Shown piece after piece: positions 21,598-54,546 of a stretch of 64,000 nucleotides of DNA. A model generated the notes under the pieces. It did no database searches. It worked only from the letters and a program-made list of their open reading frames with translations, and was not told the DNA's origin. The stretch's first letter is position 1. Each line of letters begins with the position of its first letter. The DNA is from Rhizophagus irregularis (Eukaryota; Glomeromycota; Glomeromycetes; Glomerales; Glomeraceae): positions 4,206,501 to 4,270,500 of the forward strand of contig NC_089444.1 in assembly GCF_026210795.1 (NCBI RefSeq), given 5' to 3'. Position numbers and translations under genes: made by a program.

Positions 21598-21626
21598 GTT
21601 GTTTGTTTTTATAGGTTACTTATAGT

Positions 21627-26987: not shown

Positions 26988-27451
26988 GTCATCGGGCTGG
27001 ATGTGGGAGGTGCAAGCACCACCCACCTCCGGGTCTACGACCCGTCGCAGTACCTATATGGCCCCTACGGGGCTCAGGAATTCCCATATATCCGCCACAA
27101 TCTGGGACAACATCTGGAACAAATATATATACCAAATAACTAGAAAACAATAGAAAAGGAAGCAATAACGGATATAATGAGAGGGTTGTCCCAGATGTGG
27201 CAGATGTGGCAGATGTTTCAGAAAAATTATGAGAGGACATCCCCCCAGAAAAAGTTTTATTTTTACCCCCCCAGATCCGCCACATCCGGAACATCTGGAA
27301 CAAGTCAGGATTCCGTCTAATAATCTGTTGGAAGCAGTGAGACAGCAAACCAGGTAGATTAACAGGTAAGCCCCTAGGAGGTCTATAAAGCCAGTAAGAC
27401 CAACCCCGTCCAGCCCCCATCAGAAAAAATAAGTAATTGAACAATGGGTAT
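26988..27451. repeat. Polinton B left terminal inverted repeat (464 bp)
   Basis: Aligns over its full length with the reverse complement of 46611-46664 plus 47960-48369. The outer 90 bp contain three perfect short stem-loops: GGTGCAAGCACC (27009-27020), GGGTCTACGACCC (27031-27043) and GCCCCTACGGGGC (27061-27073). By eye 17 differences separate the two repeats, 16 of them transitions. Confidence 0.9.
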
Positions 27452-28030: not shown

Positions 28031-28265
28031 TGAGCGGTGTGGATTTCACTAGATATATGTGGATTGAAAAAGGGGAAGGGAAGATTTAGAGCAGTCGTAA
28101 AGGTTTGTGGTTTATAGTTTTTTTTTTTACCTCTAGAAAATAACCGGGTATGATCGGAGGACCGCAGGACCGCAGGACTACAGGAGGGTAACCAGGTAGG
28201 AGTGCAGATCTTTGGAAAAAATATTCGGCAATTGAAGATTAGGTAACTATAAATTAGTACTCGAT

Positions 28266-30542: not shown

Positions 30543-30922
30543 TACTTTAGGGAGGTAGTAGACCACTTCAAGGACTAGATCGAATATAATAGGAACTTAC
30601 CTAAAACACCTAGCCGTAAAGAACTCGCAGATCTAATAAGAGTATACAAGGAGGATCGTGATGCCGAGATTATCCCTACTACATCTGGTTATGAAACTAT
30701 AAAGATGAATACGGGTAAGGCATGAGAAATCCCAGAGGAGCGTCCAAAGACCGAGATGGAATGCCAGTGGGAGGCTGCTAATGGATTTGTAGACGAGTTG
30801 GATATTGATGAGGCCTGTGATATGATTGACTCCTTTTAATAAGATAAGCGCCTCTTAGTTATCTTATATTTTTTATATAAAAAACCTATATTACAATTGA
30901 ATACAATTCATAGTTATATCAA

Positions 30923-32600
30923 ATGGCCTATTCAAAAATTGCACGTGCTTTACCTACAAGACCAGATATCAAAGAACTACAGTATTCAGGCGCAAGATTT
31001 TCTAGAGGAGCTATTGCCAGACTTGGACAGCAACTCCAATCCCGGTATCTAACTCATAAATTTCAGATCCTACTCCCCTATGAAAACTGGAAACCTGGTG
31101 AATGGACATCAGGAAACCAACCAGCCAGCCTCTTCTCACTCTTAGACCACTATGATGAAGCACAACTACCGGATGATGCAGATCCTGATTATTTTGAACG
31201 ATTCATAATTTATGTGAAAGATGCTCCACCGGTTGCAGGGGGATGCAATGGGGAGCTAAATGATTGCCTGTATGAATGCCTGAAGCATATCTATGGTATA
31301 TTCTCTAAAATACCCGAGACTATAAAAAAGCCTGAATATATCAAAAAGGCATTAGGTCTCAATCGTGATGCTCCAGTTCCAGTCTCATATATGGATAAGG
31401 TTGAACAACTTGCAGGAAGCCTTGCACTTAATATTGTGGGGGATTCCACTCGAATTTCCAAGAGCAAATCTGACAGACGTGCAACCCTCATCCTGTCTGA
31501 AGGCCACTACTCTCTTGCACTGAATCCCAGAAGACTTCACCCTAGTAAATTAGATAGAAAACAAAAGTCTCCCTTTGTTTATCGTGAAGATGGGGTTAAT
31601 AATGTAGTAACAATATACAATGGTAAGACAGTTAAGTCTCTTACAGTTGGACAGTTTCAGAAAGGTAAGAACTCTGATAGTTACTCCTTCATCCCTATTG
31701 AGAAGAATTGTAAAACTGGAATATATGAAACACTTGAGGAAACATACCAGAGGATCCATGAAGAGCGGGATTCCTTTCTACAGGCTACAAAGAAGTTCGG
31801 TCTAGGAATTGACTTATCTTACCACAACTGGTCGTACAAGAGAACTTCTTGCTGGCTTTTTGAACGGTTTAGTATAGGAGTTCCAGCTAATGATTCTCTT
31901 GATCCAGTCGAAGCAGAGTGGATAAGTGATGCAATGATGGGAGGTCTTATCTGGGCAGATAATGAATAGAAGGGCTATGGAAGACAATACGACATGACAA
32001 GTTTGTATCCAAGTATTCAGCAATCGAATGCTAACTTTCCAATCCAACAAGGTAAGTTTCAAATACTCAAAGACTTTGTAGACCACAGAGGTTATGCCTT
32101 GTATGGATTATTTCGTGCTAAGGTAAGTGGTAATGACATTCTCTTCCGACAGAATAAGAGGGGAGTCTGGTCGTGTTGCAAAGAGAGTTCTCAATACATT
32201 ATGGGGAGCACTCTGCCAGAGGAAACGCAATTACAAGACACTCACCACAGATCAAACAGATCCATTCAAGTTTCCGGAAGGCCACACACTTGACTCCATC
32301 ATACCAGTAGGATCTGACCAGTGGCGATTCCAATTCACAAACCCAGGTAGTCCCTTCAAGAATGAGTATCCTAGGATTGCTCCATTCTTATTAGCACATG
32401 GACGGAAGATGACTTCAGAGTTATTAGAACCATATAAGGATAAAGTATGACGCATCCATACAGATGGATTTATTCTAGAGGAACAGCCGAGTAGTCCTAC
32501 ACTTATCACTAGTCCAGAAAATGCATTCAAAGCATTGAAAGCTCTCAAGTTTGAAACCGCAGGATACTGCCATGTGAAAAATGCAAACAAGGTTATCTGG
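30923..32600 (+). pseudogene. polB: Polinton B DNA polymerase B (protein-primed type), broken
   Basis: Begins MAYSKIARALPTRPDIKELQ. N-terminal half has GGCNGELNDCLYECLKHIYG, a Cys-containing segment that could be an OTU-like or structural element (uncertain). The polymerase half shows motif A-type YDMTSLYPS, motif B-type KRVLNTLWGALCQRK and motif C-type IHTDGFIL, as in family B polymerases of Polintons and linear plasmids. It would replicate the linear element. It is a fossil with a few breaks; the copy in Polinton A keeps some sequence not seen here. Confidence 0.85.
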
Positions 32601-32719
32601 ACATGATTGCCAAGAATGCGGTTGGATTTACAGTAGGTATATATATTTTTTCTTGCTTGAATGTAAAGTCAATTTGAAGATTCCTATTTATTACAAAGTA
32701 CAAAAAAGTATAAGGAATC

Positions 32720-33190
32720 ATGTCAACATATACCGAATTAGCAAGCATTATTAACAGCACTGACAGCATTAGTGATGAAGTTATTTATGATGCATCACAC
32801 AATCAGTTCACCATTGTCTCTGATGAAACTGTCCTCAAGATTATCCGTGCATTGAAAAACACTATAGTAGTCGCATTAGTATCTGGGTTAAGCAAAACCA
32901 GCTACCTTGTCCAGGATCATGTGAAGTATATCAAGAGAATCCAGACAGCAAAGTCTCCTGTATCATATGTGAAGTTCGTGGCCAGAAAACTCTTCCCAGA
33001 TAATGCAGCATATACTGCTAAGATAGCAAAGATTCGTGAATCATACAAGAATAAACAAGCTCTCTTAGACAAACTTGAGGCCCTCTTCGAGTTGTATTAT
33101 GATGTGACTAAAGACTCATCAACCGGTCCTCCAAAGCGGGCTATCACTGTAAATGAGGCTGAGAAAACCTTAGCAGAACTTCTTGCATAA
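32720..33190 (+). CDS. Polinton B conserved 156-aa protein of unknown function
   Basis: Identical in length to 15598-16068 in Polinton A and uninterrupted in both, unlike most neighbours. Helical, Lys- and Glu-rich; ends EKTLAELLA. It follows DNA polymerase B after about 120 bp and precedes the F-box-like gene by about 110 bp. No recognised domain. The few replacements seen between the copies are mostly conservative, which could reflect past selection. Confidence 0.75.
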   Translation: MSTYTELASIINSTDSISDEVIYDASHNQFTIVSDETVLKIIRALKNTIVVALVSGLSKTSYLVQDHVKYIKRIQTAKSPVSYVKFVARKLFPDNAAYTAKIAKIRESYKNKQALLDKLEALFELYYDVTKDSSTGPPKRAITVNEAEKTLAELLA

Positions 33191-34888: not shown

Positions 34889-35000
34889 ATCATCAGGTAT
34901 TCTTGCATTTTTTGATAAGGACTGATGACCATGTTACTTGGTTATTATAAATTGAAGAAAACCATTAGGTACTGTATGTAGACATATACAGAAAAAAGAC

Positions 35001-35582
35001 ATGTCTTACCCTTATATAGCTAACCCTATAACTGGACGTCCAATTATTATCGGTGGAGATACCTTTAATCGAATAGTTATGGAATCCCATGATTATATTG
35101 ATGGAAGGCTTGTTCGTAGACAAACTGCACCTCCACCTGAGGAGCAACCTGTATATTTAAATACAGATACAGGACGTTATGTTCGACGTGGTACTAGAAC
35201 ATATCATAGACTGATTGAGAGTGACTATGAGGTAGTTGAGGATTACTACCTTGTCCATTATGAAGAAGAGGCGCTTATAGAGGAAATTATCAATGAAATA
35301 CGCTATAATGAGGAAAATCTTGATGGGCAGCAGTTAACTTTCAATGATATACAACAAATCAGGACTGCTATTCAGGCTGACCAAGATGAATATGATGATT
35401 TTATCTTACAGCAGGATACGACTAACGGGACACCTTCCTCCGGTCCTTCTGGTCATCCACGAACTTTGAAAGACCATGCCCCGAGACTTACAGAGCTTAA
35501 TATTGAGTTGTGTAGGGAATGTCTCATGCCTGTAAGCCCAAATGACTTAACGGACAAGTTGTGCAAGGACTGCTCCGAATAG
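35001..35582 (+). CDS. Polinton B protein with two 2-cysteine-adaptor-like repeats and a C-terminal zinc ribbon
   Basis: 193 residues, single open frame. Residues about 5-30 (YIANPITGRPIIIGGDTFNR) and about 51-75 (YLNTDTGRYVRRGTRTYHRL) are two related segments with the N-x-x-T-G-R ... G-x-T-[FY] pattern. That pattern is known from the 2-cysteine adaptor domain of large DNA viruses, here without the flanking cysteines. The C-terminus has CRECLMPVSPNDLTDKLCKDC, a four-cysteine zinc-ribbon-like motif. Between them is an acidic helical region. A virion-associated role is plausible by family analogy only. Confidence 0.65.
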   Translation: MSYPYIANPITGRPIIIGGDTFNRIVMESHDYIDGRLVRRQTAPPPEEQPVYLNTDTGRYVRRGTRTYHRLIESDYEVVEDYYLVHYEEEALIEEIINEIRYNEENLDGQQLTFNDIQQIRTAIQADQDEYDDFILQQDTTNGTPSSGPSGHPRTLKDHAPRLTELNIELCRECLMPVSPNDLTDKLCKDCSE

Positions 35583-36079
35583 TTACTTAATTTTGAATAA
35601 TTCTTTTTTACATATAGAAAGATAGCCATGTCAACATCAATCGTAATAAACCAGTGCCAAAACTGTGGAATAATCACTCCAAAAACAGCACATAGAGGAT
35701 TATCCAGTGTATTATACAGACAGATTATAAAGAAGATTAGTGATGAGAATGACCCTCTACAAGCCTTGGGACTTGCTAGGGATAAGTTAGTTCAGATCAT
35801 TCGTCGGGCAAGTAACACAGGTCGAAAAGTGTCAAATCAGTCACCAATCAGTCACCAATCGGGTGCCTGATTGATGCCTGATTGATGCCTGATTTTACCA
35901 ATCTAATACCAATCGGGCTGCCCGATTGATACCTGATTTCCGCCAAAATCCGACACCAATCAGTCACCTATCAGGCTGCCTGATTGTTGACAGATAGGTG
36001 ACAGATTTATGACAGATTGGTAACCGATTGGTAACAGATTGGTGACAGATTGGTGACCGATTGGTGACCGATTGGTGAC

Positions 36080-36260
36080 GAATGATAGTTAATTTTATGG
36101 TCAATCGATGGTCAATTTATAGTCAATCAATGGTAAATTAATGGTCAATTAATGGTTAATTTATGGTTAATTTATGGTCAATTTATGGTCAATTTATGGT
36201 CAATTTTATGGTCAATTTTATGGTCAATTTATGGTCAATTTATAGGTCAATTTATGGTCA
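36080..36260. repeat. GGTCAATTTAT minisatellite inside the CACTA-like element
   Basis: About fifteen imperfect copies of an 11-13-bp unit reading approximately ATGGTCAATTT in tandem, just inside the left subterminal repeats. Confidence 0.85.
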
Positions 36261-37079
36261 AATAACCAATTGGTAAAATTTTCTAGTAGTAATCATATAA
36301 CCAATAATAAAATTTATTACAGCACATAATAATATTTATTAAAATTATAAACTCTACAAATAATAAAATACATAGTGTCTTTATTTATTTATATTAATAA
36401 GTAGTGTAAATAAACATAAATAATTAATATTTAAAATAAAAACCATTCATAATCTTTTTTAAAAACAGATGTTAGTATATAACTGATAAAGTTAGTAATA
36501 TTTAATAAATAGTAAAGAGTAAATATAAAAAGTTAGTAACCGTAGTAAAGTACAAATAAATAATAAATACAGTTAGTATTATGAAGAGTTTGATAAAATA
36601 TATAAAAAAAAGAAAAATACATGATGATGTTAGTAAAAATAAAGAAATATAACATTACATTAGTAATATTAAAAAGTGATAAAGTTAATATTATAAAATA
36701 AAATATAGTCAGTACAATAAATTTAATGACAAAAATACAATAATTAATATACCTGTAAAATGTAAAGAGAATAAGAAAAAAACAAACAGAAAAGAAAGAG
36801 CGTGTATATTTTTTGAAAAATAAACAAACTCGAGTTTGGTAATTTATATGCATGTTAAGATCAAGTCACGTGCATAAAGATCAGACCGAATTTTAATTGG
36901 TTAATAATAGATAAATATCGCATCTCCAGAAAAAATTTCAATTTTTACTGTCTCTCACTTTTAAATTTGTATTAAAATTTACCTTAGACTTTCGGAGACC
37001 TAAATTTTTTTAAAATTGTTTAATTTATTTAATGTAAATTTAATAAAAAGTATATTGTTTTTTAATTAATGGTACGAAT

Positions 37080-38668
37080 TCTAAAAAATTCTCTATTAAA
37101 AATATCTCATACAAATTCTTAGAAAATTTCAAAAAAAAATTCTCTATTTCCTATACGAATCTTAGAAAATCTCAAAAAAAAAAAAAATTTCTATCAAAAA
37201 CACCCTAAAAAATTTTACAAAAAAGAAATCTCTATCAATCAAAGATATCCCATATGAACCCTTCCTATACGAACTCTTAGAAAATCTCTTAAAAAATTTT
37301 CTATCAAGGAATCTCATACGAATTCTTCCTATACAAACTCTTAGAAAATCTTTATCAAAATATTCCATACGAACTCTTCCCATACAAACACGTAGAAATC
37401 TCAAAAAAAAAAAACTCTATTTATCAAAAATATCCTATACGAATCTTAGGAAATTTCTCAAAAAAAATTTTCTATCAGATATCCCATACGAACCCTTCCC
37501 ATATGAACTCTTAGAAAATCTCAAAAAAATTTTCTATCAGATATCCCATACGAACCCTTCCCATATGAACTCTTAGAAAATCTCTTAAAAAATTTTCTAT
37601 CAAAGAATCTCATACGAATTCTTCCTATACAACTCTTAGAAAATCTTTATCAAAATATTCCATATGAACTCTTCCCATACAAACACGTAGAAATCTCAAA
37701 AAAAAAAAATCTCTATTTATCAAAAATATCCTATACGAATCTTAGGAAATTTTTCAAAAAAAATTTTCTATCAGATATCCCATACGAACCCTTCCCATAC
37801 GACCTCTTAGAAAATCTCTTAAAAAAATTTTCTATCAAAGAATCTTATACGAATTCTTCCCATATGAATCTACGAATCTAATGTATAGTTAAAATAAATT
37901 GGTCAAATAAGAAAGTGAAAAAGAGAGAAATATATTACCATATTTGAAATTAACAGAGAAAAAAATTTTTTTAATTTTTTTTTTATCAATCCTTTTTTAT
38001 ACTGTATGCTGCATTAGTATCACAAAAAATTTTCCAATTTTTGATGATCTTTACATAGTTCTTAGAAAATCTCAAAAAAATTTTCTATCAGATATCCTAT
38101 ACGAACCCTTCCCATACGAACTCTTAGAAAATCTCTTAAAAAATTTTCTATCAAAGAATCTCATACGAATTCTTTCTATACAAACTCTTAGAAAATCTTT
38201 ATCAAAATATTCCATATGAACTCTTTCCATACAAACACGTAGAAATCTCAAAAAAAAAAAATCTCTATTTATCAAAATATCCTATACGAATCTTAGGAAA
38301 TTTCTCAAAAAAATTTTCTATCAGATATCCCATATGAACCCTTCCCATATAAACTCTTAGAAAATCTCTTAAAAAAATTTTCTATCAGATATCCCATACG
38401 AACCCTTCCCATATGAACTCTTAGAAAAACTCTTAAAATATTTTCTATCAGATATCCCATACGAACCCTTCCCATACGACCTCTTAGAAAATCTCTTAAA
38501 AAAATTTTCTCTCAGATATCCCATACGAACTCTTCCCATACGAACTCTTAGAAAATCTCTTAAAAAATTTTCTATCAAAGAATCTCATACAAATTCTTCC
38601 TATATAAACTCTTAGAAAATCTTTCAAAATATTCCATACGAACTCTTCCCATACAAATGCGTAGAAAT

Positions 38669-38702
<34 letters not shown>

Positions 38703-38790
38703 CTATTTATCAAAAATATCCTATACAAATCTTAGGAAATTTCTGAAAAAAAATTTTCTATCAGATATCTCATACGAACCCTTCCCATAG
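37080..38790. repeat. Complex tandem array inside the CACTA-like element
   Basis: Repeats of short modules, chiefly CATACGAACYCTTCCCATA, TCTTAGAAAATCTCTTAAAA and AATTTTCTATCAGATATC, arranged in higher-order units of roughly 150-300 bp. A uniform A-tract of about 30 bp occurs near 38669-38698. Open frames here follow the repeat period and are not genes. Confidence 0.8.
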
Positions 38791-39385
38791 CAACACTACA
38801 AAAAAGAAAAAAATATATTTAAAAAAAAAAGAAAAACCTTCTCCCTTGCTCAGCCTTCCCTTACCTCAATTCTCAAAGTCTGGCAATTTTTTTCGTCCAT
38901 AAAAAAGATTTTTTTTTTTCAAATCGGATAATGATCTAGATTACGGATCACATCTCACTCAATTCAGAGTAACACAAATTGCAGGAAAAGAAGTTGATCA
39001 GCAATATTGTTAACCAATTGCTACCCGATTGCTAACTATTTGACTTATCAATTTACCAATTACGAACAGGTTTTCGGACAAATAATACGATCCGGAAATA
39101 ATTTTTTTTCTCAATATTTACAATTAAAAAATTTGTAAATCGGAATGCTGTTTATCTTTATTAAATGAATGTTTTTTTAAGCCAATCAGTCACTAATTGG
39201 CTATTCATTTGGTAGCCGATTTTCATATTAAAGAATAAATAAAAATCCTAAATTCTTGAAAACTATCAGATATTGCAAACCAATCAGTAACCAATCAGTC
39301 ACCAATCGGTTATGTCAGATTGGTGACCGATTGGTGACTGATTGTCAATAGTAAATTTAATATATTTATCAAAACAAACTCAAAA

Positions 39386-40074
39386 TAGAGATGCGATCCA
39401 GATGAAATTTTACAATCCGTGATCTGCACAGATCAATCCGGATTATCATAGGATTAAATTCGGATAATCCAGATTAACTTCAAATTTTTGGGTATCTCGG
39501 CATCCAACGATCGTATAGAGATGCACTATAGCTCATTCGAATCGTTGCATTGAGACGATTCGAATGAGCTATAGTGCATCTCTGTACGATCACTGGATGC
39601 CGAGATAATTGGCAAAACGTGAAACATCAGCATTTTTATTTTACGATCATGCAAAATTTTACGTTTTGCCGAATATCTCGGCATCTAGTGATTGTACAGA
39701 GATACACAATAGCTCATTCAAATCGTCTAAGTGCAACGATTCGAATGAGCTATTGTGCATCCCTGTACGATCGTTGGATGCCGAGATATTCGGCAAACCG
39801 TCAAAAATCAGTAGTATCGTAAATAAAAAATGCTGATTTTTGACGGTTTGCCGAATATCTCGGCATCCAGTGATCGTACAGAGATGCACAATAGCTCATT
39901 CAAATCGTCTCATTACGACGATTCGAATGAGCTATTGTGCATCTCTGTACGATCATTGGATGCTGTTTCGGATTAAAACGGATATCCTTAATTCATCCAG
40001 ATGCATCCATTATCTGTTCGGATCGGATGGATAGGCGGATGATTTGAATTTTTGGATTTTGGATCGCATCTCTA
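39386..40074. mobile_element. 689-bp hAT MITE nested in the CACTA-like element
   Basis: Ends TAGAGATGCGATCCAGAT and, on the other strand, TAGAGATGCGATCCAAAA, with the 8-bp duplication ACTCAAAA at 39378-39385 and 40075-40082. It contains a triple-hairpin array at about 39492-39964. No coding capacity. Confidence 0.9.
39492..39964. repeat. Array of three ~110-bp near-perfect hairpins
   Basis: Three palindromes, about 39492-39606, 39670-39790 and 39855-39962. In each, ATCTCGGCATC...GAACGATTCGAAT-type arms face each other (recurrent words CGATTCGAATGAGCTAT and GTGCATCTCTGTACGATC). Linkers between them (GGCAAAACGT and TTTTGACGGTTTGCC) are themselves inverted with respect to one another, so the block folds as hairpins within a hairpin. 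Confidence 0.8.
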
Positions 40075-40897
40075 ACTCAAAAGCTCAGATTAAGCATAAC
40101 TTGACTTGCTTTATAAAGCTATAATACTAATTTTTTGACTTTAATATAAAAATCAGATATTGTAAACCAATCAGTAACCAATCAGTCACCAATCGGTTAT
40201 GTCAGATTGGTGACCGATTGGTGACTGATTGTCAATAATAAACTTAATATATTTATCAAAATAAACTCAAAAGTTCAGATTAAGTATAATTTAACTTGCT
40301 TTATAAGACTATAATGCTAATTTTTTACTTTAATATGTAAATCAAATATTGTAAACAAATCGGCAATCAATCAGTCACCAATCGGTTATATGACCGATTG
40401 GTGACCGATTGACAATCTATGCCTGGTTAGTGACCGATAGGTAACAGATTGAAAGAATCGGTCACTAATAGGTAACCAATCAGTCACCAATCAGTCATAT
40501 GACCGATTGATGACTGATTTTTCATATTTCGACCTGTGTAATGTGGACTTTACACAATTGTTTACACAAAGATTGGATATGAAAATTATGGATGGAGAGC
40601 CATATGAAGATATTAGGAAGTGGCTTTTCGAACAGCTTATAGCCATAGGTTGTGATAGTGGAGAAATTGCCTTATATCAATTTCTAAGGGATACATATCC
40701 AGATGGTATCGACGAGCCTTTCAATACATTCTATGAGAACTATGTAAATCATATAAGTAATTCAATGACTAAGAACTTTGCTTCTCGTGCCTTAGGAGCA
40801 ATAGGGTTGAAGGCTAAGATGTTAAGGATTGACTTTGAGGGCCGTAAAAAAAGTGCTATGATTCTTAGGGCTTCTGCAGACAAATTACTTGATATTC

Positions 40898-41068
40898 TCA
40901 CATAATACTATTAATCCCTACTTGTAATGCTCGACGGTCCATATGGCCCTTAGAAAAGATATGTAGAAGAACTTCAATACCTTCTATTATTTTTTTATTA
41001 TCCAGAGGGCGACTAGACTTCAGGGCTTCATATCGGGAGAATAACTCCTTCACATTCTCAGTTTTCAT
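40898..41068 (-). CDS. Possible 56-aa small protein next to the packaging ATPase
   Basis: Short minus-strand frame beginning MKTENVKELFSRYEALKSSR and ending ALQVGINSIM. Its start overlaps the 3' end of the ATPase gene by 11 bp and its stop overlaps the end of the convergent plus-strand gene by 8 bp. This compact layout is typical of viral gene clusters. Helical and charged; no family recognised. The evidence is layout and a plausible composition only. Confidence 0.4.
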   Translation of the reverse strand: MKTENVKELFSRYEALKSSRPLDNKKIIEGIEVLLHIFSKGHMDRRALQVGINSIM

Positions 41069-42122
41069 AGTTTTCAGTCTTTGCAGTCCTACCCTGTACT
41101 TTTGCTAAGAAGTCCTGAAAGTCAGCTCCTAGGTTCTTACCAGAAAGTCCATAAACTTCCCGAAAGACATATTTAATCCAGGTATCTGCATTCTTGGCTA
41201 AGACACCAGGTACAAGTAAATGTTGACGTTCTTTAGGGGATGGAAATACCCGAGCAAATTCAATCAAGTATCCACCTTTTTTTGCTTCAAATACAGCTTT
41301 CTGACCATAGGGACTAAACTTGGATCGAACTGTGATTGAACTGGGTTCAGACTGAAATCGAACTGGGTTCAAACTTGGATCAAACTGAGATTGAACTGAG
41401 ATCGAACTAGGATTGAACTGAGATTGCTCTGTGATTGAATTGAGACTAGTATCCCATCTTACTCGAATGGACAGTGGATCACTTTTGGACCGTCTAAGAT
41501 CAAACACTACAAATTCACGTTGCAGAGTAAGATCATCAATTACTGGTGCTAATGACTCTGATTCTTCTGTATATAGGCGGATGATTCTCTTGGTATCTGT
41601 AAGGCTCCCATGACCTCCATGCAGTGAGATGTAGTTAACATTTTCTCGAATAGCCTTAGGAATGGCAAAGAATCTTTGGGCTACATAAATACATGAAATA
41701 TTTTTGTGTCGTCCATGTGTAAAGTAACCAGTGATGAGATCCTGGATTTTTTTAGGTGCATCCATCAGATCCTCGAAGATTACCACAGTAGCTTGAGTAG
41801 GGTCAAAGGAGTCAATCTCTGGAATCTCACTATGGGTTACTGCAGTGAATGGGATCTTCTCCTCTTTGAAAAAATCATGTACAACTGCCCACTTTGGCTC
41901 GTCAAGATATCTGCCAACTAAAAGTACTGCATCACATAGTACATACCGATTACCATCCTCCTTTGCCTTCTTGTCACCCATTAACAAGTTAATGATCATA
42001 GTTGTTTTACCTGAGTCTGAGCTACCTGCTACGGCTAATCGAAAGGGCCATGATGGAGCAAACTCATTGCCTTGTCTTGAGTCGGTCGTGTACTCGTCCA
42101 AATTGTATACATAAAGATCCAT
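41058..42122 (-). CDS. Polinton B A32/FtsK-HerA-type genome packaging ATPase
   Basis: 354-residue frame. Walker A is GSSDSGKT at residues 33-40, Walker B is VVIFED at 113-118, and the order around them (PFRLAVAGSSDSGKTTMIIN ... IPEIDSFDPTQATVVIFEDL ... TGYFTHGRHKNISCIYVAQR) matches the A32-like packaging ATPases of Polintons, virophages and large DNA viruses. These pump element DNA into capsids. Residues about 225-275 are a Ser/Gln/Phe/Pro repeat stretch (QSQFNPSSISVQSQFDPS) that looks like an insertion in the family fold. Divergent from the coiled-coil gene, with 31 bp between their starts. Confidence 0.85.
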   Translation of the reverse strand: MDLYVYNLDEYTTDSRQGNEFAPSWPFRLAVAGSSDSGKTTMIINLLMGDKKAKEDGNRYVLCDAVLLVGRYLDEPKWAVVHDFFKEEKIPFTAVTHSEIPEIDSFDPTQATVVIFEDLMDAPKKIQDLITGYFTHGRHKNISCIYVAQRFFAIPKAIRENVNYISLHGGHGSLTDTKRIIRLYTEESESLAPVIDDLTLQREFVVFDLRRSKSDPLSIRVRWDTSLNSITEQSQFNPSSISVQSQFDPSLNPVRFQSEPSSITVRSKFSPYGQKAVFEAKKGGYLIEFARVFPSPKERQHLLVPGVLAKNADTWIKYVFREVYGLSGKNLGADFQDFLAKVQGRTAKTENYEN

Positions 42123-42153
42123 TTGAATTTTATTCTAACTTAGTTTAAATACT

Positions 42154-42951
42154 ATGTCGACATCAACACCAATTCCAGTTTATACTCCTTCAGAACCTAC
42201 TGGACCGCCTCCTGCACACTTGGCCAATGAAGAAGACGATGATGAATTAGTTAGAATACTAAAGGCTCATGCAAATTTATTGACTACCAGGGGTCGTTTA
42301 ACTGTTGATTCAGAGATACAGGAGGCAAATAATCAAATCAAACATATTATTAATATATTAATGTATCGCTGTAAAGCAAAACATGAAGAACTTGGTATTA
42401 CAAAAGATTTGTTAGTTTTTGCACAAGGTAATATAAATGCATTTGATGAAACATTTACTAATTTAGAACGACAATTAGTTATTATACATGCTGCCAATGA
42501 TAATTTCATAGAAGAAAACCATAACCTGCAAAGAGATTATGATACTATGGTAGAGCTTCGTCGACGGGCTATAGGTGAACATAATCAGGCACGACATGAA
42601 CGTAATGTATTACAAGCAGATTATACTCAAGCAGTAATGGATCGTAATGAGGCTCAAAATGCTGTGAATCGTGGTAATATCCTTCTAAATCATTGGCGGC
42701 TGAGGGCTACTCGGACTGGAGGACAACTTGTATTGGCTAATGCGCAACTTGGACAGGTTAATGCACAGCTAGCACATGCTAATAATAGGGTGCGTTTTGG
42801 GATTCAGACATTAGGGAGACTTAGGAATAGACTTTTCCAACAGATAGCTGCTCTTAGAATTCAGGTACAATGGTTTCGAATTAGACAATTGAACCCTCCT
42901 CCACCTCTTTTAAACAATCCACTAGAGACGATATGGCTACCACTGCGATAG
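42154..42951 (+). CDS. Polinton B long coiled-coil protein upstream of the Gag-like region
   Basis: 265 residues. A Pro/Glu-rich N-terminus (TPIPVYTPSEPTGPPPAH) leads into nearly continuous helix with Asn/Gln/Arg-rich heptads (residues about 45-245) and a Pro-rich end (RQLNPPPPLLNNP). It overlaps the start of the Gag-like frame by 19 bp, suggesting coupled expression. No family recognised. A structural or assembly role alongside the Gag-like protein is inferred from position. Confidence 0.65.
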   Translation: MSTSTPIPVYTPSEPTGPPPAHLANEEDDDELVRILKAHANLLTTRGRLTVDSEIQEANNQIKHIINILMYRCKAKHEELGITKDLLVFAQGNINAFDETFTNLERQLVIIHAANDNFIEENHNLQRDYDTMVELRRRAIGEHNQARHERNVLQADYTQAVMDRNEAQNAVNRGNILLNHWRLRATRTGGQLVLANAQLGQVNAQLAHANNRVRFGIQTLGRLRNRLFQQIAALRIQVQWFRIRQLNPPPPLLNNPLETIWLPLR

Positions 42952-44363
42952 GATTGCCAATTTTTGAGGGTAAAGCTACTGATGATATTGATACATTTGT
43001 TAGGCTTTATATGGGTTATCTTGATACTATCAATCTTAACCCATACGCTGCTGGAGGGCCACCAGAGTCTTGGAAAAGAGCTATGGGTATACTTAGAAGC
43101 TGCATGGCCGGTGAAGCAGCTGAATGGTTTGATCGAGAAATTACAGGAAAAAATTGGGAACTTTCTGGTATCACTTCAAGAGGTGGAGCTAATTTAGCTG
43201 CTTTTGTAGCATTAGTAATACCAGAAGGTGCAGGAGGACCGAATGCAGGTACCTATGTAAATGGGTCTGAAGCAGATGTTTATGCTACAGATGTAGCTAA
43301 TGCATTAGTAACTATTAGAGCAGCATTTATTCCTACCCATGATTTAATAGGTGGAGATAAAGCTTGGGGAAGAGCTGGTGCTCGTCCGACAGATAGAGCT
43401 GCTCCAGCTACTGCAGATGCTGGTGTTGCTGCTAATAATAATCGTTCTATAGTTTTTCCAGGTATTAAACCTAACCAGGCACTTTATTGGCTTAGAACAC
43501 AATTCCCAACTATTTTAGATGAAAAGAAACATATCCGTTTTAACAGTCTTTATCAGGAAAATGAGCCAGTTGATGCATTTTATAGAACTGTAAAGAGGGC
43601 TGGAAAATTACTAAAACTAACTGATGATCTTATTATCGACCAGTTCTTTAGAGGTCTTTCAGCTGATAATATTTTTGAAGCAGAAAGGTTTAGTAATCTT
43701 AATCCTGATGACTTGGTTAAACATTTGAGAAATTTAGAACGGAGAAGGGCTGAAATGCGCTTGGGGTTACAAGATAGAAATCGATGACTTCAAGCAGATT
43801 ACAGTGATGTAACTCAACCTCCGTTAGGAAAACAGGAACCTGTCGTACTGACATCAAAGTCATTTGGGGTTACTCAAGAACAATTACAAGAGTTGCTTAA
43901 GGCTCAGGCTGAAGAACTTACCAAGAATTTTCAGGTGCAACTTAAACAATTACAGGCTCGGCCAGTTCGTAATCTACCAGTCTATAGACAGCAGATTAAA
44001 CCTGTTCAACCAAAACCACAGAGACGTGTTATTCAGGATCATCAGGATCCTGATTGGGATGATGGTTATGTAGAACCTGATGTTGGTGATGATCCTGATG
44101 CTCCTGATTGGACTTTGGATGATTATCAAAATGCTATTGATCTTATTATGGGATATAAACGTGGGACTTCTAAAATACTTACAAATCAACTTCAGAAGGC
44201 TAAAGATAGACGTGATGATCTGAATTTGGCCCGAGCAATGAGAAACCTCGATCTTAACAATGATGCTATGGACATTGATACTGTGAGTTTTGGTGAAAAG
44301 GTAGAATTGAGAGAAAAAGATGGTGATGTCTATATGGTTCGTGTTGGGTCAAAAAAAAAGTAG
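42933..44363 (+). pseudogene. Polinton B Gag-like (retrotransposon capsid-type) region
   Basis: The N-terminal portion reads LPIFEGKATDDIDTFVRLYM, then MAGEAAEWFDREI, then YQENEPVDAFYRTVKRAGKL and DQFFRGLSADNIFEAERFSN. This is the pattern of the Ty3/gypsy Gag capsid domain (F-x-G-x3-D-x-D-x-F, A-x-x-W, F-x-x-L, F-x2-G-L). An Asp-rich, Gln-rich C-terminal portion follows to 44363. No CCHC knuckle was seen. It lies inside the Polinton between the coiled-coil gene and the retropepsin-like gene, same strand. Fossil with about one break. Confidence 0.7.
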
Positions 44364-44425
44364 GTTCGAGTATCTCAAAACTTCTTAAGTCGTCCCCAAA
44401 TAAGACATCAGTTAGCCCTTCTAGT

Positions 44426-45094
44426 GTGCCCTTAAAAGGCAAAGCAACCCCTGTTAAGATTCCTGTGAAAGTTATTGGTAGTAAGTCTACACCTGCAAAA
44501 GCTGTTACTAAGAATGACTTATTAAGCCTGTTAAGGTCTGCAGACTTTAGGAAATTACTTCGTGAGATTCTTCAGGAGGAGATGATGTCTGCTAGAAAAG
44601 TCATAGAGATTTCAGATGACTTAGCTGAGGAGAAACAAGAAGAGGATATCAGGGAAGATGATCCTATGGATATTGATATAGCTCGTTTGGAAAATACTAA
44701 AGATCTTTTAGCACTGGATGGGAAGGTTAATGGGATAGCAATTCAGTGTTTAGCAGACACTTGTGCTAATGCGTCTTTTATTCAGAGAGAAGCTGTTGAG
44801 GAATTAGGGTTGGATATCGACAAGAGTATTACATACAACATATTTGGTGCTCCAGGAACAAATAGGACATTCGGCATGGTAAAGGGAGTGTCAATCAAAC
44901 TTACCCCTGATTATGCTATTACTGAGGATCTTGCAGTTTTAGATGGATACAAGCATAGGGAGATTGGGTTAAGCCGAACGTGTCTGAAACGTTACAATTA
45001 TGATGTCCATGAATCACGTGAACATATAGCCCTTACCTGTGATGGAAAGAATGTTTTTATCCCGATAGTTCCTGATGTGAATAGAGGAGGATAA
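44426..45094 (+). CDS. Polinton B retropepsin-like aspartic protease region
   Basis: 222-residue frame. A Lys/Glu-rich N-terminal part with a conserved DDPMDIDIA stretch precedes a retropepsin-like domain (residues about 95-215): VNGIAIQCLADTCANASFIQ, the D-T-x-A-type loop, then REAVEELGL, TFGMVKGVSIKL, LAVLDGYKHREIGLS and LTCDGKNVFIPIV, in the order seen in retrotransposon proteases. Such proteases process Gag. Located directly after the Gag-like region and convergent with the integrase gene, whose end is 20 bp away. Confidence 0.65.
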   Translation: MPLKGKATPVKIPVKVIGSKSTPAKAVTKNDLLSLLRSADFRKLLREILQEEMMSARKVIEISDDLAEEKQEEDIREDDPMDIDIARLENTKDLLALDGKVNGIAIQCLADTCANASFIQREAVEELGLDIDKSITYNIFGAPGTNRTFGMVKGVSIKLTPDYAITEDLAVLDGYKHREIGLSRTCLKRYNYDVHESREHIALTCDGKNVFIPIVPDVNRGG

Positions 45095-45114
45095 AAAATA
45101 GAGGTGTTTCTTTT

Positions 45115-46242
45115 TTACTCCCAGAATTTGAGCACTAGATTTGGAACATCCTCCTCCAACCGGTCAGCAGGTTCCCAAGTGGCTTCTGTATCTGGGTATC
45201 GCTCCCACTTAACCAAATACTGGTCTTGACTTTTTCTAATGCGATGCCGAAGTATCTGCTCAGGAACAAATCTTTTAGGTTGTCCTCTTATCACAGAGTC
45301 AGGTGGAGGCTTTTCATTAATAGGAACTACTTGCAATTCTTTTCGGGTATATGCACATCTGGATACACCTAATCGACCATGTGGTCCGTTAAGAAGATAT
45401 GTAGGAGGTTGTTCGGGTGAGAGTATCATTTTTTTGATTACACGAATGTTTGGGTTCCATCTTATATCTCCTGTACGGAATTTTCTATAAAGTTTGTTAC
45501 CAAGTACAGAAATAGGTTCATCTAACTTGACTCTGACACGTGTTCCTTCAGAGAGGAGGTCTGTCTTTTTTGACACTTTGGGTGACCCTGTCGGAATGTC
45601 TGGGGGATTTCTCTGCCAGAGTTCATTTACTTTACTCACTATATTATGGAAATCTTCTGACCATTCCACGGATGTCACCCCAGTCTTCAACTCCTGTGCC
45701 ACCATTCGTTTGAGAAGGGGTTCTTGGATGGCTTGGATAGCTCTTTCAGCATATGATTGCTGTTTATGCCTTCCTGGCTCTCCGAATCTCATCATTACCC
45801 CTAGGCTGTTCAGGAAAAAATCACGTACCTGGTCGTTAGTGAATTCTGATCCAGAGTCCGTCTCCAGTCGGTGTGTTGGAGGCTTGATATGATTTCTTCT
45901 GTAGATTTTGACAAACCCATTTAGAACTCTATTTGCAGTCTTATCCTTTAGGGGTTCTGCATCAACTCTCTTTCCTGCGACTTCCACCACTACGAGAAAA
46001 TAGTGGAATCCTTTGGGGTTAACTGGCATCTCTGCAAGATCTGCCTGATGTGTTGCATTTGGTTTCCATACAATTACCATTGGGCGTTCTGTTGACTTTT
46101 CCTTTAGGGGCTTTTTGTATAGGTTGTAGTGCTCTTCACCTTTTAGAATTCGTGCTGGTACTCTGGATAGACTGTAGTACTTGTAGTAATTCTCTAAGTG
46201 TGACATATTATGACAAATTAAAGGAATGGTTTTAGACTTCAA
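45115..46242 (-). CDS. Polinton B DDE integrase with C-terminal chromodomain
   Basis: 375 residues. Catalytic-core segments: HQADLAEM (Asp68), LETDSGSEF (Asp129) and RHKQQSYAERAIQAIQ (Glu166), a D,D-36-E spacing expected of the retroviral-type integrase known from Polintons. The C-terminus (residues about 322-375) is a chromodomain: QILRHRIRKSQDQYLVKWER, then YPDTEATWEPADRL, which may steer insertion to heterochromatin marks. It makes the 6-bp staggered joints seen at the element ends. The start is 8 bp from the divergent zinc-ribbon gene. Confidence 0.9.
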   Translation of the reverse strand: MKSKTIPLICHNMSHLENYYKYYSLSRVPARILKGEEHYNLYKKPLKEKSTERPMVIVWKPNATHQADLAEMPVNPKGFHYFLVVVEVAGKRVDAEPLKDKTANRVLNGFVKIYRRNHIKPPTHRLETDSGSEFTNDQVRDFFLNSLGVMMRFGEPGRHKQQSYAERAIQAIQEPLLKRMVAQELKTGVTSVEWSEDFHNIVSKVNELWQRNPPDIPTGSPKVSKKTDLLSEGTRVRVKLDEPISVLGNKLYRKFRTGDIRWNPNIRVIKKMILSPEQPPTYLLNGPHGRLGVSRCAYTRKELQVVPINEKPPPDSVIRGQPKRFVPEQILRHRIRKSQDQYLVKWERYPDTEATWEPADRLEEDVPNLVLKFWE

Positions 46243-46250
46243 ATCTTAAG

Positions 46251-46571
46251 ATGACACGTTTTTACTGCCTAAAGTGCAAGAAGAAAACTGAGACTGCTAG
46301 TGAAATACAAGATATGACCACAAATGGACGTTATCGTTTACATGGTGATTGTACAGTTTGTGGTATGCATAAGAATACTTTTACTGGAGTAGACTTGGTG
46401 ATCAAGAAGAAGACTAAGGAGAAAAAGAAAGAAACCGCTGCTAAGAGACAGCAGACGGCTTACAATCGGCAATGCAAAAAACTCGGACAGAAAATTTTAG
46501 ATGCTGATGACACTTGCAAGCAGTGTATTGATAAATGTCTTAAAGAGGCAAAAAAGAGGAAGACGGATTAG
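46251..46571 (+). CDS. Polinton B basic zinc-ribbon protein (virus-type)
   Basis: 106 residues. An N-terminal two-CxxC ribbon (FYCLKCKKKTE ... LHGDCTVCGMHKNTF) resembles the small zinc-ribbon family DUF5679 found in DNA viruses and Polinton relatives. The C-terminal half is very Lys-rich with further cysteines (CKQCIDKC), suggesting nucleic-acid binding. Divergently arranged with integrase and ending 39 bp before the right terminal repeat. Family call from pattern only. Confidence 0.65.
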   Translation: MTRFYCLKCKKKTETASEIQDMTTNGRYRLHGDCTVCGMHKNTFTGVDLVIKKKTKEKKKETAAKRQQTAYNRQCKKLGQKILDADDTCKQCIDKCLKEAKKRKTD

Positions 46572-46664
46572 TACTGCCTTCTAAACTTATCTGGATACAC
46601 TCTATTCCCAATACCCATTGTTCAATTACTTATTTTTTCTGACGGGAGCGGGACGGGGTTGGTC

Positions 46665-47951
46665 TAGGGTTGGTAAAATAACCGTTAGTTATGAATTTGG
46701 TTAATTAACCGGTTAATTAACGGTTAGTTAACGGTTAATTAACCCATAAATAACCTGTATATATAATTTTAAGGAAGTTAAAATAAATTTATAATTTATT
46801 AAATATTATAAAATTTTAATATATTTTATTTATTCTTCATCATCTAAATTAATAACATTTGCTTCAAATCCAAATATACTATCATTATCAGAACTATTAT
46901 TATTATCATCTTCTTTATTTTCATTATCAGAACTATTATTACTATCTTCTTCATTTTCATTAAAATTACTACCCATTTAGCTGTATGAGATTCTTCACCA
47001 GAATAAATAGCATCAAAGAATAATGGTTTTGGAGTACAAATAACAAAATTTTGAACTGATTCTCGATTAATATTAGACCAACCATCTGAAACCATTGTAA
47101 GAGATTTAGCTTGTAAAATTTGTTCATTACATTCAGCTTTAACTTCATCAAAAACATCATCAAGTAATTCATCAGCAAGTTTTCTTCGATTAGGTAATTT
47201 GAATGCTGGACGTAATTGTTGAAAAAACTGAATAACATAATTATTTTCAAGAAAAGAAAAAGGAACTCCAGCAGCAAATAATGCTTGAGCTAGTAAAATT
47301 TCAAGAGTATCTTGTTCTTCTTCACTCATACGATCAACAAAATTCTCAATTGTTGTATTTTTTAAATGCTTTTTTGATGTTTTTACTGTAGGAATAAAAG
47401 TAGAAGTAGTAGCATCAGAAGTTTCTAATAGTTCAGGAATTTGTTGTTTCTTTGTTTTTGCACTTTCTGGAGCTCTAGGACAACTATCATTAAGATGAAC
47501 TTGCATTCTTTTAGCTGTACCTTGTTCAAAAACTTTAGAACAATAATTACAACGTACAGAAGGATGTGTTTTTTTCTTAGACCTACTACTTTCTTCATTA
47601 CTTTCTGCTTCAGTAATTATTGTCCAATGTTTCCAAACAGTTCCCTTTTTTTTTACCATGATAATGAACAATAAATTTGCAAAAAAAAAGTGTTTTTTTA
47701 AAAAAAAATTATCTTAAAAAAAAGATCATGCAATATGTAGATCATAGATTTAATCAATATTTATATTAATTAATATTTAATTGTGTAACAAAATAATGGA
47801 TTATCATTTAATCACATGATTTAAATTCTGCATTTTGATTGGCTAATTATAAATAACGGTTAATTAACCATTTTAAATCAATCATAACTAACAAAATTAA
47901 CGGTTAATTAACCATGGTTAATTAACCGTGGTTAATTAACCCCCATCCCTA
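46665..47951. mobile_element. 1287-bp hAT element with truncated BED-finger transposase
   Basis: Ends TAGGGTTGGTAAAATAACC and CCATCCCTA (the opposite end reads TAGGGATGG inward). The 8-bp duplication GGTTGGTC is at 46657-46664 and 47952-47959, inside the Polinton terminal repeat. Subterminal regions are packed with TTAATTAACC/GGTTAATTAA motifs. It encodes an N-terminal transposase fragment on the minus strand. The missing catalytic half suggests an internally deleted derivative. Confidence 0.92.
46844..47671 (-). pseudogene. hAT transposase, N-terminal fragment with BED zinc finger
   Basis: 275-residue frame. A BED-type finger (VRCNYCSKVFEQ ... MQVHLNDSC) binds DNA. The hAT core then begins: ALFAAGVPFSFLENNYVIQF, ELLDDVFDEVKAECNEQI and SLTMVSDGWSNINRESVQNF, the last holding the first catalytic Asp. 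The frame departs from the family after GEESHTAKW into Ile/Lys-rich low complexity. The middle insertion domain and C-terminal dimerisation part, about half of a normal hAT transposase, are absent. A start a few codons in (MVKKKGTVW) is equally possible. Confidence 0.85.
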
Positions 47952-48375
47952 GGTTGGTCTTACTGGCTCTATAGACCTTCTAGGGGCTTACCTACTAACT
48001 TACCTGGTTTGCTATCTCACTGCTTTCAACAGATTATTAGACGGAATCCTGACTTGTTCCAGATGTTCCAGATGTGGCGGATCTGGGGGGGTAAAAATAA
48101 AACTTTTTCTGGGGGGATGTCCTCTCATAATTTTTCTGAAACATCTGCCACATCTGCCACATCCGGGACAACCCTCTTATTATATCCGTTATTGCTTCCT
48201 TTTCTATTGTTTTCTAGTTATTTGGTATATATATTTGTTCCAAATGTTGTCCCAGATTGTGGCGGATATATGGGGATTCCTGAGCCCCGTAGGGGCCATA
48301 TAGGTACTGCGACGGGTCGTAGACCCAGAGGTGGGTGGTGCTTGCACCTCCCACATCCAGCCCGATGACAATATG

Positions 48376-51852: not shown

Positions 51853-54546
51853 TCATTGCGCGTCGTCCATATGTAAATCAGAATCTGAATTATTATGATT
51901 GTCGCCGACCGTTGATTTTGATGGTTTTTCTTCTTCTTCCTTGTTATGGTCTTCATCATTTTCGGTGGTGTTGCCAGTTGCTGGTGTTGTCCCTCTACTA
52001 ACTTCTTCTTCTTCTTCATCATATTCAGTGATTAAACCCTGATCGATATCAGTATCGAATATTAAATCTTGTTGTTGTACGATATAAGACCATTCGGGAG
52101 CATTCGACGGATGTGGTCGGTCGTATTTTTGTACCTCGTCATCGTATCTACGTTCGCGTATTAATTTTGACTTATTTGACGAGTGTACATCGAGTACATT
52201 TCGTAGCAAATTTTTAAGCTGAAGAAACAATAAAATATAAAAATTAAATCCAGCGATTCGTCTGAAAAATCAAGATTCAGAAGTTCTAACCTCATCAGAT
52301 CTCCACGAATAGTCGTAAATAGCGATTATGGACTTTGTTGGGTCTTCTTCGTCTGTCTCACTTATTTCTGGAGAATGAAATAAGCGATTGGATAACATCT
52401 TTAGTAATCTACGCTTATCATATTTTGTTATCCGTTCATCGTCAAAACTATATAATCTCTTTGCCGCCTTAATTCGGCAGATTTTCTTCTAAAATACGTT
52501 ATAATTTGAATAAAATTCAATACATAATCGGAATAAAATTCAGCATAATAATTATAAATCATTACTAACGTCGTGTACTCGATTGTTTGAGTGCACCCGG
52601 TGTTTATTTTCATCGGCTTTTCCCCTATCCATTAATCTTTGATGAGAACGACGAGACTTGTGGAGACAACCCAACCATTTTGTAAGTTGCTTATTCGAAG
52701 CGGGAAAACACGGAGCAAAAGCTGAACGCAATTCAGGGACTAGCTTACGACGAATCTTGAGATTTTTCGCGCTATTGAACGTTTCATTGTAATCTAGTCC
52801 TCGAGTTTCATCGATGGTTTTCAAAATAGACTTCATTTCAGCCTAAATATAACAATCAAATAATGATAACCAGTACTTAATTACTCAATACTGCAATTTT
52901 AAATAACTGAATCAGACAAATAAAATTAATATACCCTAGCTTCTTTTTCGTCGTACTCATCATTATTGTTAGAACCAGACCGTTCTTCCTCCGATTCTTC
53001 CTCGTATCGCTCGGACTTTTTTGTCTTAATTCTTTTTTGACGTTTTGCCGGCTGTTCGAGATCCGTCTGCCTATGAATGGCTTTAGGCAGACGGATTCTC
53101 GAATACCTGTTTAAGCTTTCGCATAGATCGTCATTCTCGTCTGCAAAGGCCTCGTTTATTCGAGTCAAAAAACGATTTTCGTCGAATAATCGGTTATTTT
53201 CGCGTTGAAGCTTTGCATTCTCTACTTGTACTTCTTCAATTTGTTTCTTTAATTTTAGATTTTCTAAATAAAGAATTTTATTAATAGTAATATTTTTTTA
53301 CGAATAATTCTGAATTTATACGAATGAAGTCAAAATCGTACCTGCTTCTAAATCAGTATCGTCGTCATCGATCATCCTTTCATTACCTTGATCGTCTTTA
53401 ACCACTAATACGAATTTTTGTGGAATTCGAATATTCCCATATCGTTTTTTCATTTCCGATAACATCTCTTGTTGATCTATAAAAATTATTAATTATCGTA
53501 CATGTCAATCAGCAATTTTCCAAAATTCAATTACCTTTAGGAATATTTGGCGGTTCAATTTCTATAACCTCATCGTCAGACTCTTCTTGAGTCGGCTTAG
53601 TCGACTTTGCAGATTTGAGGATCGACTTGATGGGTGACGATTTGCTAGTCGACTTATTGGTTTTGTCAATCGTCTCATTCGGATTACTTTCTTCTTCTGT
53701 TCTTCCCCGTTGACGATTAGATACTTCGTCAGGTGTTTCTTCTTGAAACCTTTGCTGCTTTTGTTTGTTTGACTTGATGAGTGACGATTTGCTAGTCGAC
53801 TTATTGGTTTTGTCACTCGTCTCATTCGGATCACTTTCTTCTTCCACTCTTCCCCGTTGACAATTAGATCCTTCGCTCGGTGTTTCTTCTTGAAACCTTT
53901 GCTGCTTTTGTTTGTTTGACTTGGTGGGTGACGATTTGCTAGTCGACTTATTGGTTTTGTCACTCGTCTCATTCGGATTACTTTCTTCTTCCGTTCTTCC
54001 CCGTTGACGATTAGATCCTTCGTCAGGTGTTTCTTCTTGAAACCTTTGCTGCTTTTGTTTGTTTGACTTGGTGAGTGACGATTTGCTAGTCGACTTATTG
54101 GTTTTATCACTCGTCTCATTCGGATCACTTTCTTCTTCCGCTCTTCCCCGTTGACGATTAGATCCTTCGCTCGGTGTTTCTTCTTGAAACCTTTGCTGCT
54201 TTTGTTTGTTTGACTTGGTGGGTGACGATTTGCTAGTCGACTTATTGGTTTTGTCACTCGACTCATTCGGATTACTTTCTTCTTCCGTTCTTTCCCGTTG
54301 ACGATTAGATCCTTCTTCAGGTGTTTCTTCTTGAAACCTTTGCTGCTTTTGTTTGTTTGACTTGGTGGGTGACGATTTGCTAGTCGACTTATTGGTCTTG
54401 TCACTCGTCTCATTCGGATTACTTTCTTCTTCCGTTCTTCCCCGTTGACGATTAGATCCTTCGTCAGGTGTTTCTTCTTGAAACCTCTGTTGCTTTTGTT
54501 TGTTATTTTTTTTATTGTTTTTTTTATTATTGCTATTATTTGACAT
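51853..54546 (-). CDS. Six-exon gene of unknown function, apparently intact; possible CACTA-associated DNA-binding protein
   Basis: Exons (minus): 54546-53535, 53476-53342, 53263-52935, 52842-52570, 52488-52291, 52218-51853. All five introns (58-92 bp) are GT...AG and the joined frame is open, giving about 770 residues. I chose MSNNSNNKKN at 54546; an in-frame ATG at 54600 is possible. Exon 1 encodes six 49-residue repeats rich in Gln, Glu, Asn, Ser and Lys. Exon 3 has a leucine-zipper-like coiled coil (KKQIEEVQVENAKLQRENNR). Exons 4-6 form a basic helical domain (APCFPASNKQLTKWLGCLHK; IAIYDYSWRSDELKNLLRNV; RPHPSNAPEWSYIV) and a very acidic end. I recognise no family. It sits between a CACTA-type end and a divergent transposase fragment, the layout of a TnpA-like accessory gene, but a host gene is possible. 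Confidence 0.75.
53620..54505. repeat. 147-bp in-frame tandem repeat within exon 1
   Basis: Six copies of a 147-bp unit encoding KQKQQRFQEETPDEGSNRQR and so on, ending STSKSSPTKSN. The unit is a multiple of three, so copy-number change keeps the frame; the second open frame across it is a shadow of this periodicity. Confidence 0.9.

Follow-up and report, generated by a model that had tools for sequence, protein, structure and literature searches.

A stretch of 64,000 nucleotides from Rhizophagus irregularis (NC_089444.1, positions 4,206,501 to 4,270,500; hereafter the window, whose numbering is used unless another locus is named) contains a Polinton-type element at 26988-48369, with terminal inverted repeats (TIRs), a family B DNA polymerase (PolB), an SF3 helicase, an A32 ATPase and a chromodomain integrase. 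Between the ATPase and the integrase lies a block of three genes, encoding a coiled-coil-like protein, a Gag protein and a retropepsin-like aspartic protease. The composition of this module and its conservation are almost beyond doubt. The block is probably the morphogenesis module of the Polinton, in which Gag and retropepsin of the Ty3/retrovirus type replace the double-jelly-roll capsid and the Ulp1-type protease, and with rather less assurance we take Gag to be the actual shell around the element DNA. The original prediction, made from the window alone, had placed the three regions on one strand between the ATPase and the integrase, inside 464-bp terminal repeats; all three are found there on the plus strand, and the repeat length is right for the left TIR, the right one being split by an insertion. 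The block and its two neighbours consist of:

41058-42134, minus strand: A32/FtsK-type ATPase, presumed packaging motor (Pfam Pox_A32 2.4e-9, over cut-off)
42154-42951, plus strand: coiled-coil-like protein gene, by reading (open reading frame (ORF) 42139-42951, ATG at 42154)
42933-44363, plus strand: Gag, a capsid (CA) domain followed by a linker region (ORF 42885-44363; profile, model and structure comparison)
44351-44359, plus strand: A9 run in the Gag/protease overlap, candidate -1 frameshift site, by sequence
44327-45094, plus strand: retropepsin-like aspartic protease, in the -1 frame relative to Gag (Asp_protease_2 1.1e-6)
45115-46245, minus strand: rve integrase with a C-terminal chromodomain (rve 3.3e-9, Chromo 8.8e-16, both over cut-offs)

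The same arrangement recurs throughout the genome. Searches of 146.7 Mb in 32 contigs, in which the best candidates were scored (131 of 323 for gag, 114 of 424 for the ATPase, 109 of 440 for the integrase and 116 of 203 for PolB, so that counts are partial), gave 135, 119, 110 and 118 matches, which merged into 117, 110, 108 and 111 loci, respectively. Linkage to gag was accepted for an ATPase upstream and an integrase downstream, on the opposite strand and within 6 kb, and for a PolB on the same strand up to 25 kb upstream. An ATPase lies upstream in 104 of the 117 gag loci, the chance expectation being about 0.002 per locus; ATPase and integrase are both present in 93, and PolB as well in 79. 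The other loci have ATPase and integrase only (14), ATPase and PolB (11), integrase and PolB (2), integrase only (3) or none of these (8). Conversely, gag adjoins 103 of the 110 merged ATPase loci in the same arrangement, and is found within 6 kb on the opposite strand at 98 of the 108 integrase loci. Recurrence of the block at about a hundred loci is more than chance. Five of the eight gag loci lacking all three neighbours belong to a divergent family (C; the family names A-D are labels of this analysis) that carries its own ATPase, integrase and PolB. At the other three (C14:4258073, C18:3857417 and C27:128185) neither an ATPase nor an integrase was detected within 6 kb of gag; these solitary loci are probably decayed pieces.

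Since ATPase, integrase and PolB accompany gag at so many loci, the block is not a late insertion, and other copies do not lack it, as the original prediction had reasoned they would in that event. A nested long terminal repeat (LTR) retrotransposon, or its remnant, would account for a Gag and a protease of retrotransposon type in a genome with many rve genes (150 scored of 458 candidates). This is very improbable, as the block, its order and its orientation are constant at about a hundred loci, and it is intact in a compact copy with identical TIRs (C11:411621-425971, the C11 copy). The two signs of such an insertion named beforehand, bounding LTRs and a reverse transcriptase, did not appear: no direct repeats bound the block in the C11 copy, whose only repeats are the inverted TIRs and two short tandem ones (L039), and no reverse transcriptase was found among the Pfam-scanned ORFs of the window and L039-L048, a set in which antisense and overlapping ORFs were mostly not included. 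The ratio of non-synonymous to synonymous polymorphism (pN/pS) of the block is also below 1.

The Gag assignment comes mainly from structure. In a profile search of the PDB with Gag, PEG10 ranks first (E 0.014). An AlphaFold2 model from 34 sequences (predicted local distance difference test score (pLDDT) 80.2, predicted template modelling score 0.66) was compared by Foldseek, and its best match is the C-terminal domain (CTD) of PEG10 CA (probability 1.00, target-TM 0.67-0.70, best E 0.011), followed in the PDB by HIV, MLV, SIV and Ty1 CA; the best 50 of 269 PDB matches are all retroviral or LTR-type CA. Among predicted viral structures the top two are a fungal metavirus ORF1 (E 0.20) and an endogenous retrovirus Gag (E 0.28). 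The poorer model of family C Gag (15 sequences, pLDDT 56.8), which contains a long helix in its coiled-coil-like region, matches the PEG10 CTD in its first four places (target-TM 0.72-0.76), and 49 of its 50 best-listed matches are Gag CA. The models thus predict a Gag-CA-like fold in the Gag of the element, which is accepted in spite of weak E-values because the match list is uniformly Gag CA. The Ty3/gypsy Gag pattern originally noted is supported by model and structure comparison, the Pfam match remaining below cut-off.

Other features of Gag agree in part with those of known relatives. Retrotrans_gag matches weakly in 10 of 21 homologues (best 0.0041, below cut-off), with every other family matching in one, and the family C relatives P0147 and P0148 give 0.00035 and 0.00042, both below cut-off. 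A CCHC zinc knuckle was not seen in families A and B; CX2CX4HX4C was read in family C proteins, with zf-CCHC at 0.0098 in Pfam, below cut-off. The named proteins that match the window Gag best are from R. irregularis (P0001-P0003, 92-93% identity over 98-100% of it; P0075, up to 99% over 100%). Among 31 metagenome Gag proteins (near-full-length homologues chosen by eye, shorter ones excluded) 26 have KK within the last 14 residues, compared with 4% of random 14-mers.

The protease is more readily recognized. Asp_protease_2 exceeds its cut-off both in the window and in the family B homologue (3.2e-8), in agreement with the retropepsin-like region noted earlier. The catalytic motif reads DTC, not DTG, in families A and B (window 44756-44764; L041 ORF 4059-4826); in family C it is DSG in the R. 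irregularis genome and DTG in P0147 and P0148. Gag terminates in A9, G and a stop; overlapping this end, the protease is read at -1. A runs of this kind are known to be slippery. Of the 30 loci with the best matches, 23 have A9, 3 have A8, 2 have A7, 1 has A10 and 1 has A6, and at both A7 loci Gag and protease form one 737-aa frame. A9 and AAG-stop with a -1 protease were read at one locus each in families A, B and D, with the stops TAG, TAA and TGA; the single family C locus read is an exception to this rule, its overlap being in the other frame and without A9. No stable fold was found downstream of the A9 run.

By membership the element is a Polinton in its TIRs, target duplication, integrase, ATPase and, less surely, its polymerase. 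The defining capsid and protease of viral Polintons did not turn up in recognizable form, which agrees with the original prediction: neither a jelly-roll capsid nor a Ulp1/adenain cysteine protease has a Pfam match among the ORFs scanned in the window, the C11 copy and the family B homologues, which is absence at Pfam sensitivity, not proof. A search of the genome with Capsid_NCLDV gave no match, its 14 controls being equally silent. A jelly-roll capsid elsewhere in the element, which was to have weakened the proposal, would have to be sought among the 158-, 190- and 202-aa ORFs, which are conserved in families A and B and without a confident family; Gag would then be an accessory. We consider this distinctly unlikely, as a double-jelly-roll capsid usually exceeds 450 aa and these ORFs are far below that length. 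Among the unassigned ORFs of at least 120 aa in the C11 copy none is above 202 aa except the 246-aa coiled-coil protein.

If Gag forms the shell, a life cycle can be proposed. The integrated element would be transcribed, and PolB and the SF3 helicase would copy linear DNA between the TIRs, with protein priming likely to judge from the family. Gag and its coiled-coil partner may assemble the shell, while slippage at A9 would give rise, in minor amounts, to a Gag-protease product by which Gag is cleaved. The A32 ATPase would then pump element DNA into the shell, and the chromodomain integrase would insert the DNA with a 5-6 bp duplication. The retrotransposon gag-pro is envisaged as having been captured long ago by a DNA element. 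As for the exchange of the morphogenesis module put forward in the original prediction, the linkage of Gag, protease and ATPase is supported; particle formation by the element, with shell building by Gag and packaging of DNA by the ATPase, we infer.

The sequence evidence for Gag is weak when taken alone, Retrotrans_gag on the window Gag giving 0.013, below the Pfam cut-off, and the E-values of the structural matches are weak. Gag and protease might be conserved without packaging DNA, forming an intracellular ribonucleoprotein, an Arc-like capsule or a trafficking complex in an element that is only a transposon. Host-domesticated Gag capsids such as Arc and PEG10 do exist. The idea of Polintons losing the capsid gene to live as transposons is also told in PMC7805220. 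We nevertheless hold a non-packaging role to be unlikely, because the A32-type ATPase adjoins gag in most loci of the main search and in 5 of 5 family C loci, and because the protease and the ATPase would be left without an obvious role.

The state of the copies was compared at 30 family A loci, in which Gag is intact in 14, the protease in 16 and the coiled coil in 24, so about half are damaged. Intact family A copies have pN/pS values of 0.385 for Gag, 0.216 for the protease and 0.507 for the coiled coil, which is modest purifying selection, as expected of young copies. In the family B locus read (L041), gag contains both a stop and a change of frame. Comparing one locus each of families A and B, amino acid identity is high in the integrase (0.93), PolB (0.89), ATPase (0.88), protease (0.86) and helicase (0.82), and much lower in the coiled coil (0.57), Gag CA (0.45) and the C-terminal part of Gag (0.42). 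Synonymous divergence (dS) follows the same division, at 1.65 for CA, 1.30 for the coiled coil and 0.90 for the C-terminal part of Gag, compared with 0.44-0.84 in helicase, integrase, protease, PolB and ATPase. The pattern fits a capsid cassette that was exchanged through recombination, with very fast evolution as the alternative.

Two more distant families combine a similar module with another polymerase. The Gag of family C shares 33-34% identity with that of the window (E 2e-30 to 2e-33) and lies within a 941-aa frame that opens with a coiled-coil-like part and, by reading, includes a CCHC knuckle, the coiled-coil region being fused to Gag in families C and D alike. The ATPase is 3.5-3.9 kb upstream of gag on the other strand at all five loci, with the integrase between. 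Homologues are present in R. clarus, R. diaphanus, Glomus cerebriforme and Dentiscutata erythropus. Family D (L047) has an ATPase, an 805-aa coiled-coil protein ending in KKK, a protease at -1 and an integrase (rve 0.049, below cut-off); in its capsid region no similarity to Gag is detectable. The family D integrase frame is 563 aa (L047 2320-4011), with a C-terminal extension that is weakly treble-clef-like (DUF4379 0.03). Families C and D also share a coiled-coil-like protein whose C-terminal hydrophobic stretch resembles a membrane anchor (L048 997-2073, L047 8047-9000, L045 5544-6407, L046 3569-4588), and in L046-L048 a short gene, helix-turn-helix-like by reading, adjoins the gene of this protein.

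Beyond the protease of family C an asfarvirus-type PolB was found, first at C30 and C21, then at the predicted place in the remaining three of three loci and in family D. Its best PDB match is 8ywg (6.2e-193), which we take to be the asfarvirus enzyme (the PDB listing itself says DNA polymerase), plus two of its kind; the next match is at 3.3e-21. At L045 and L048-L052 (C30, C21, C1, C23, C6, C8) this PolB lies near Gag, protease, integrase and A32 ATPase in a fixed order, and at least some of the dispersed asfar-like polB genes of R. irregularis may therefore belong to such elements rather than to giant-virus insertions. The PolBs of families C and D are 34-81% identical to the C21 PolB, whereas ATPase pieces of the same elements are 97-100% identical to the query, which is a further sign of module exchange.

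The reverse origin also has to be weighed, in which a Ty3-type gag-pro-int element acquired PolB, helicase and ATPase and shed its reverse transcriptase, the integrase thus being of retrotransposon descent too. The integrase does carry a chromodomain and adjoins gag-pro, but it is on the opposite strand, and chromodomains are also borne by Polinton integrases. It seems, moreover, to have its own history, because the family A integrase found no tblastn match at 1e-3 in the family C and D loci while the family A ATPase, Gag or protease queries did. Such an origin appears improbable, and capture of gag-pro by a DNA element is preferred.

The remainder of the window element is composed of the following:

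26982-26987: left target-site duplication AATATG, read from the sequence
26988-27451, plus strand: left TIR, 464 nt, by repeat comparison
28236-30542, plus strand: SF3-type primase-helicase, 768 aa in the window copy (Pfam DUF5906 2.7e-17)
30914-32606, plus strand: family B DNA polymerase, broken in the window copy, its end set by C11 comparison
32714-33190, plus strand: conserved 158-aa ORF, no Pfam match
34956-35582, plus strand: 208-aa ORF (C11 homologue: 2C_adapt E 0.0009, below cut-off)
35816-40537: insertion of about 4.7 kb, missing from the C11 copy, interrupting a 190-aa gene (3' part at 40538-40905)
46236-46571, plus strand: 111-aa ORF, DUF5679 (Pfam 2.3e-18), zinc-ribbon-like by reading
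46666-47951: insertion within the right TIR, by C11 comparison
47952-48369, minus strand: right TIR, main part, by repeat comparison
48370-48375: right target-site duplication AATATG, read from the sequence

The right TIR is in two pieces, from 48369 down to 47952 and from 46665 down to 46611, with the insertion between. The C11 copy is compact and complete (14,351 bp), with the block present, TIRs of 462 nt that are 100% identical and the target-site duplication TACAT. The window copy is collinear with it (96% over 41011-46665) and differs by the two insertions, a PolB gap at 32168, the frame being open to 31969, and an in-frame TGA in gag at 43785-43787; it is therefore a damaged copy within a family that also has intact ones. 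The C11 copy encodes a Gag of 492 aa and a helicase of 879 aa (DUF5906 1.6e-17; Pox_D5 0.015 and NCBIfam primase_Cterm 5.5e-6, both below cut-off), and further ORFs have matches below the Pfam cut-off to F-box-like (0.0087) and, as listed, 2C_adapt. Its ATPase, protease, chromodomain integrase and DUF5679 genes were assigned through the homologues in the window or family B. The helicase was observed at the window, C11 and C23 loci only. The C11 PolB (629 aa) matches DNA_pol_B_2 over its cut-off (1.7e-7), the alignment beginning at profile position 209 and thus lacking the first (exonuclease) part, and gave no match in the PDB search. An OTU domain is suspected from a C/H pattern by reading, Pfam giving no match. 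The consensus of polymerase motif C is DTD; the presumed motif C of families A and B (L039 4362-6251; L042 4279-6141) reads HTDG.

Elsewhere in the window, a partial inverted second copy (helicase, PolB and one TIR region) faces the first at 14143-22103. Long direct repeats, 85-96% alike with a spacing of 9.7 kb, lie at 4-3497 and 9699-13195, and tandem repeats at 147-nt spacing (53477-54511) keep the frame of a 359-aa ORF and so encode a protein repeat of 49 residues.

A literature search, in which subscription journals were scarcely covered, found no case of a Gag-bearing Polinton. To our knowledge Gag capsids belong to reverse-transcribing viruses and to host-domesticated copies, and packaging ATPases are a feature of DNA viruses that are tailed or have jelly-roll capsids. 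The conserved joining of the two, if true, would breach a basic division of the virus world. According to one account, no major capsid protein (MCP) gene was detectable in the early Polintons, among them that of Glomus intraradices (R. irregularis); the notion that they live as transposons arose from this, and the MCP of the R. irregularis Polinton was not yet identified (PMC7805220, 2021). Other papers place Mavericks among recent expansions in R. irregularis (PMC8647823) and report an asfar-like polymerase in it (PMC5294986). A later paper describes an asfar-like region of 1.5 Mb in one strain and asfar-like polB on several chromosomes in all strains. It found no MCP in five strains, nor the markers A32 and D5, and one explanation it gives is a major virion protein of unknown kind (PMC10640383, 2023).

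The Gag module is a candidate major capsid for both the R. irregularis Polinton and the asfar-like insertions. It offers a concrete answer to the stated gap of the missing MCP, testable in a fungus that is grown in the laboratory. Taken together, the families could represent a hitherto unrecognized class of double-stranded DNA viruses or virus-like elements of Glomeromycotina, with a Gag shell, maturation by retropepsin and filling by A32. Their exchangeable cassette (coiled coil, Gag, protease, ATPase and integrase) would be joined to at least two unrelated replication systems, namely a short PolB with SF3 helicase and an asfarvirus-type PolB, and its capsid part swapped between lineages; the scattered asfar-like polB genes would be partly theirs, and the missing capsid of both would be Gag. 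We give this joint reading an even chance. Should families C and D prove to share the life cycle, a new class would be justified.

Compared with known systems, the element resembles Polintons/Mavericks (Polintoviricetes) in its TIRs, 5-6 bp target duplication, family B polymerase, rve integrase, A32-type ATPase and size of about 14 kb when free of insertions, but has Gag and retropepsin and no recognizable jelly-roll capsid or Ulp1-type protease. It shares with Ty3/Metaviridae Gag-Pol (Ortervirales) a predicted Gag-CA-like fold and a retropepsin-like protease at -1 after Gag, and in family C a putative CCHC knuckle was read; unlike these it has a DNA polymerase and an A32 ATPase, reverse transcriptase and LTRs not having been found. 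Mavirus-type virophages also have an rve integrase, but differ in that the element has no recognizable jelly-roll capsid and that an OTU domain is suspected by reading and not matched by Pfam. Their layout of a short PolB and a separate SF3-type helicase, as given in PMC11071308, recalls the PolB without a matched exonuclease part and the separate helicase of the element. Bidnaviridae show that a Polinton polymerase can be combined with an unrelated capsid, the capsid having been replaced (same source), although theirs is a parvovirus-type capsid and their DNA is single-stranded. Finally, the asfarvirus-like insertions of R. irregularis, as described in PMC10640383, have in common with families C and D an asfarvirus-type PolB, which in these families, unlike in the insertions, lies repeatedly and in a fixed order near integrase, Gag, protease and ATPase.

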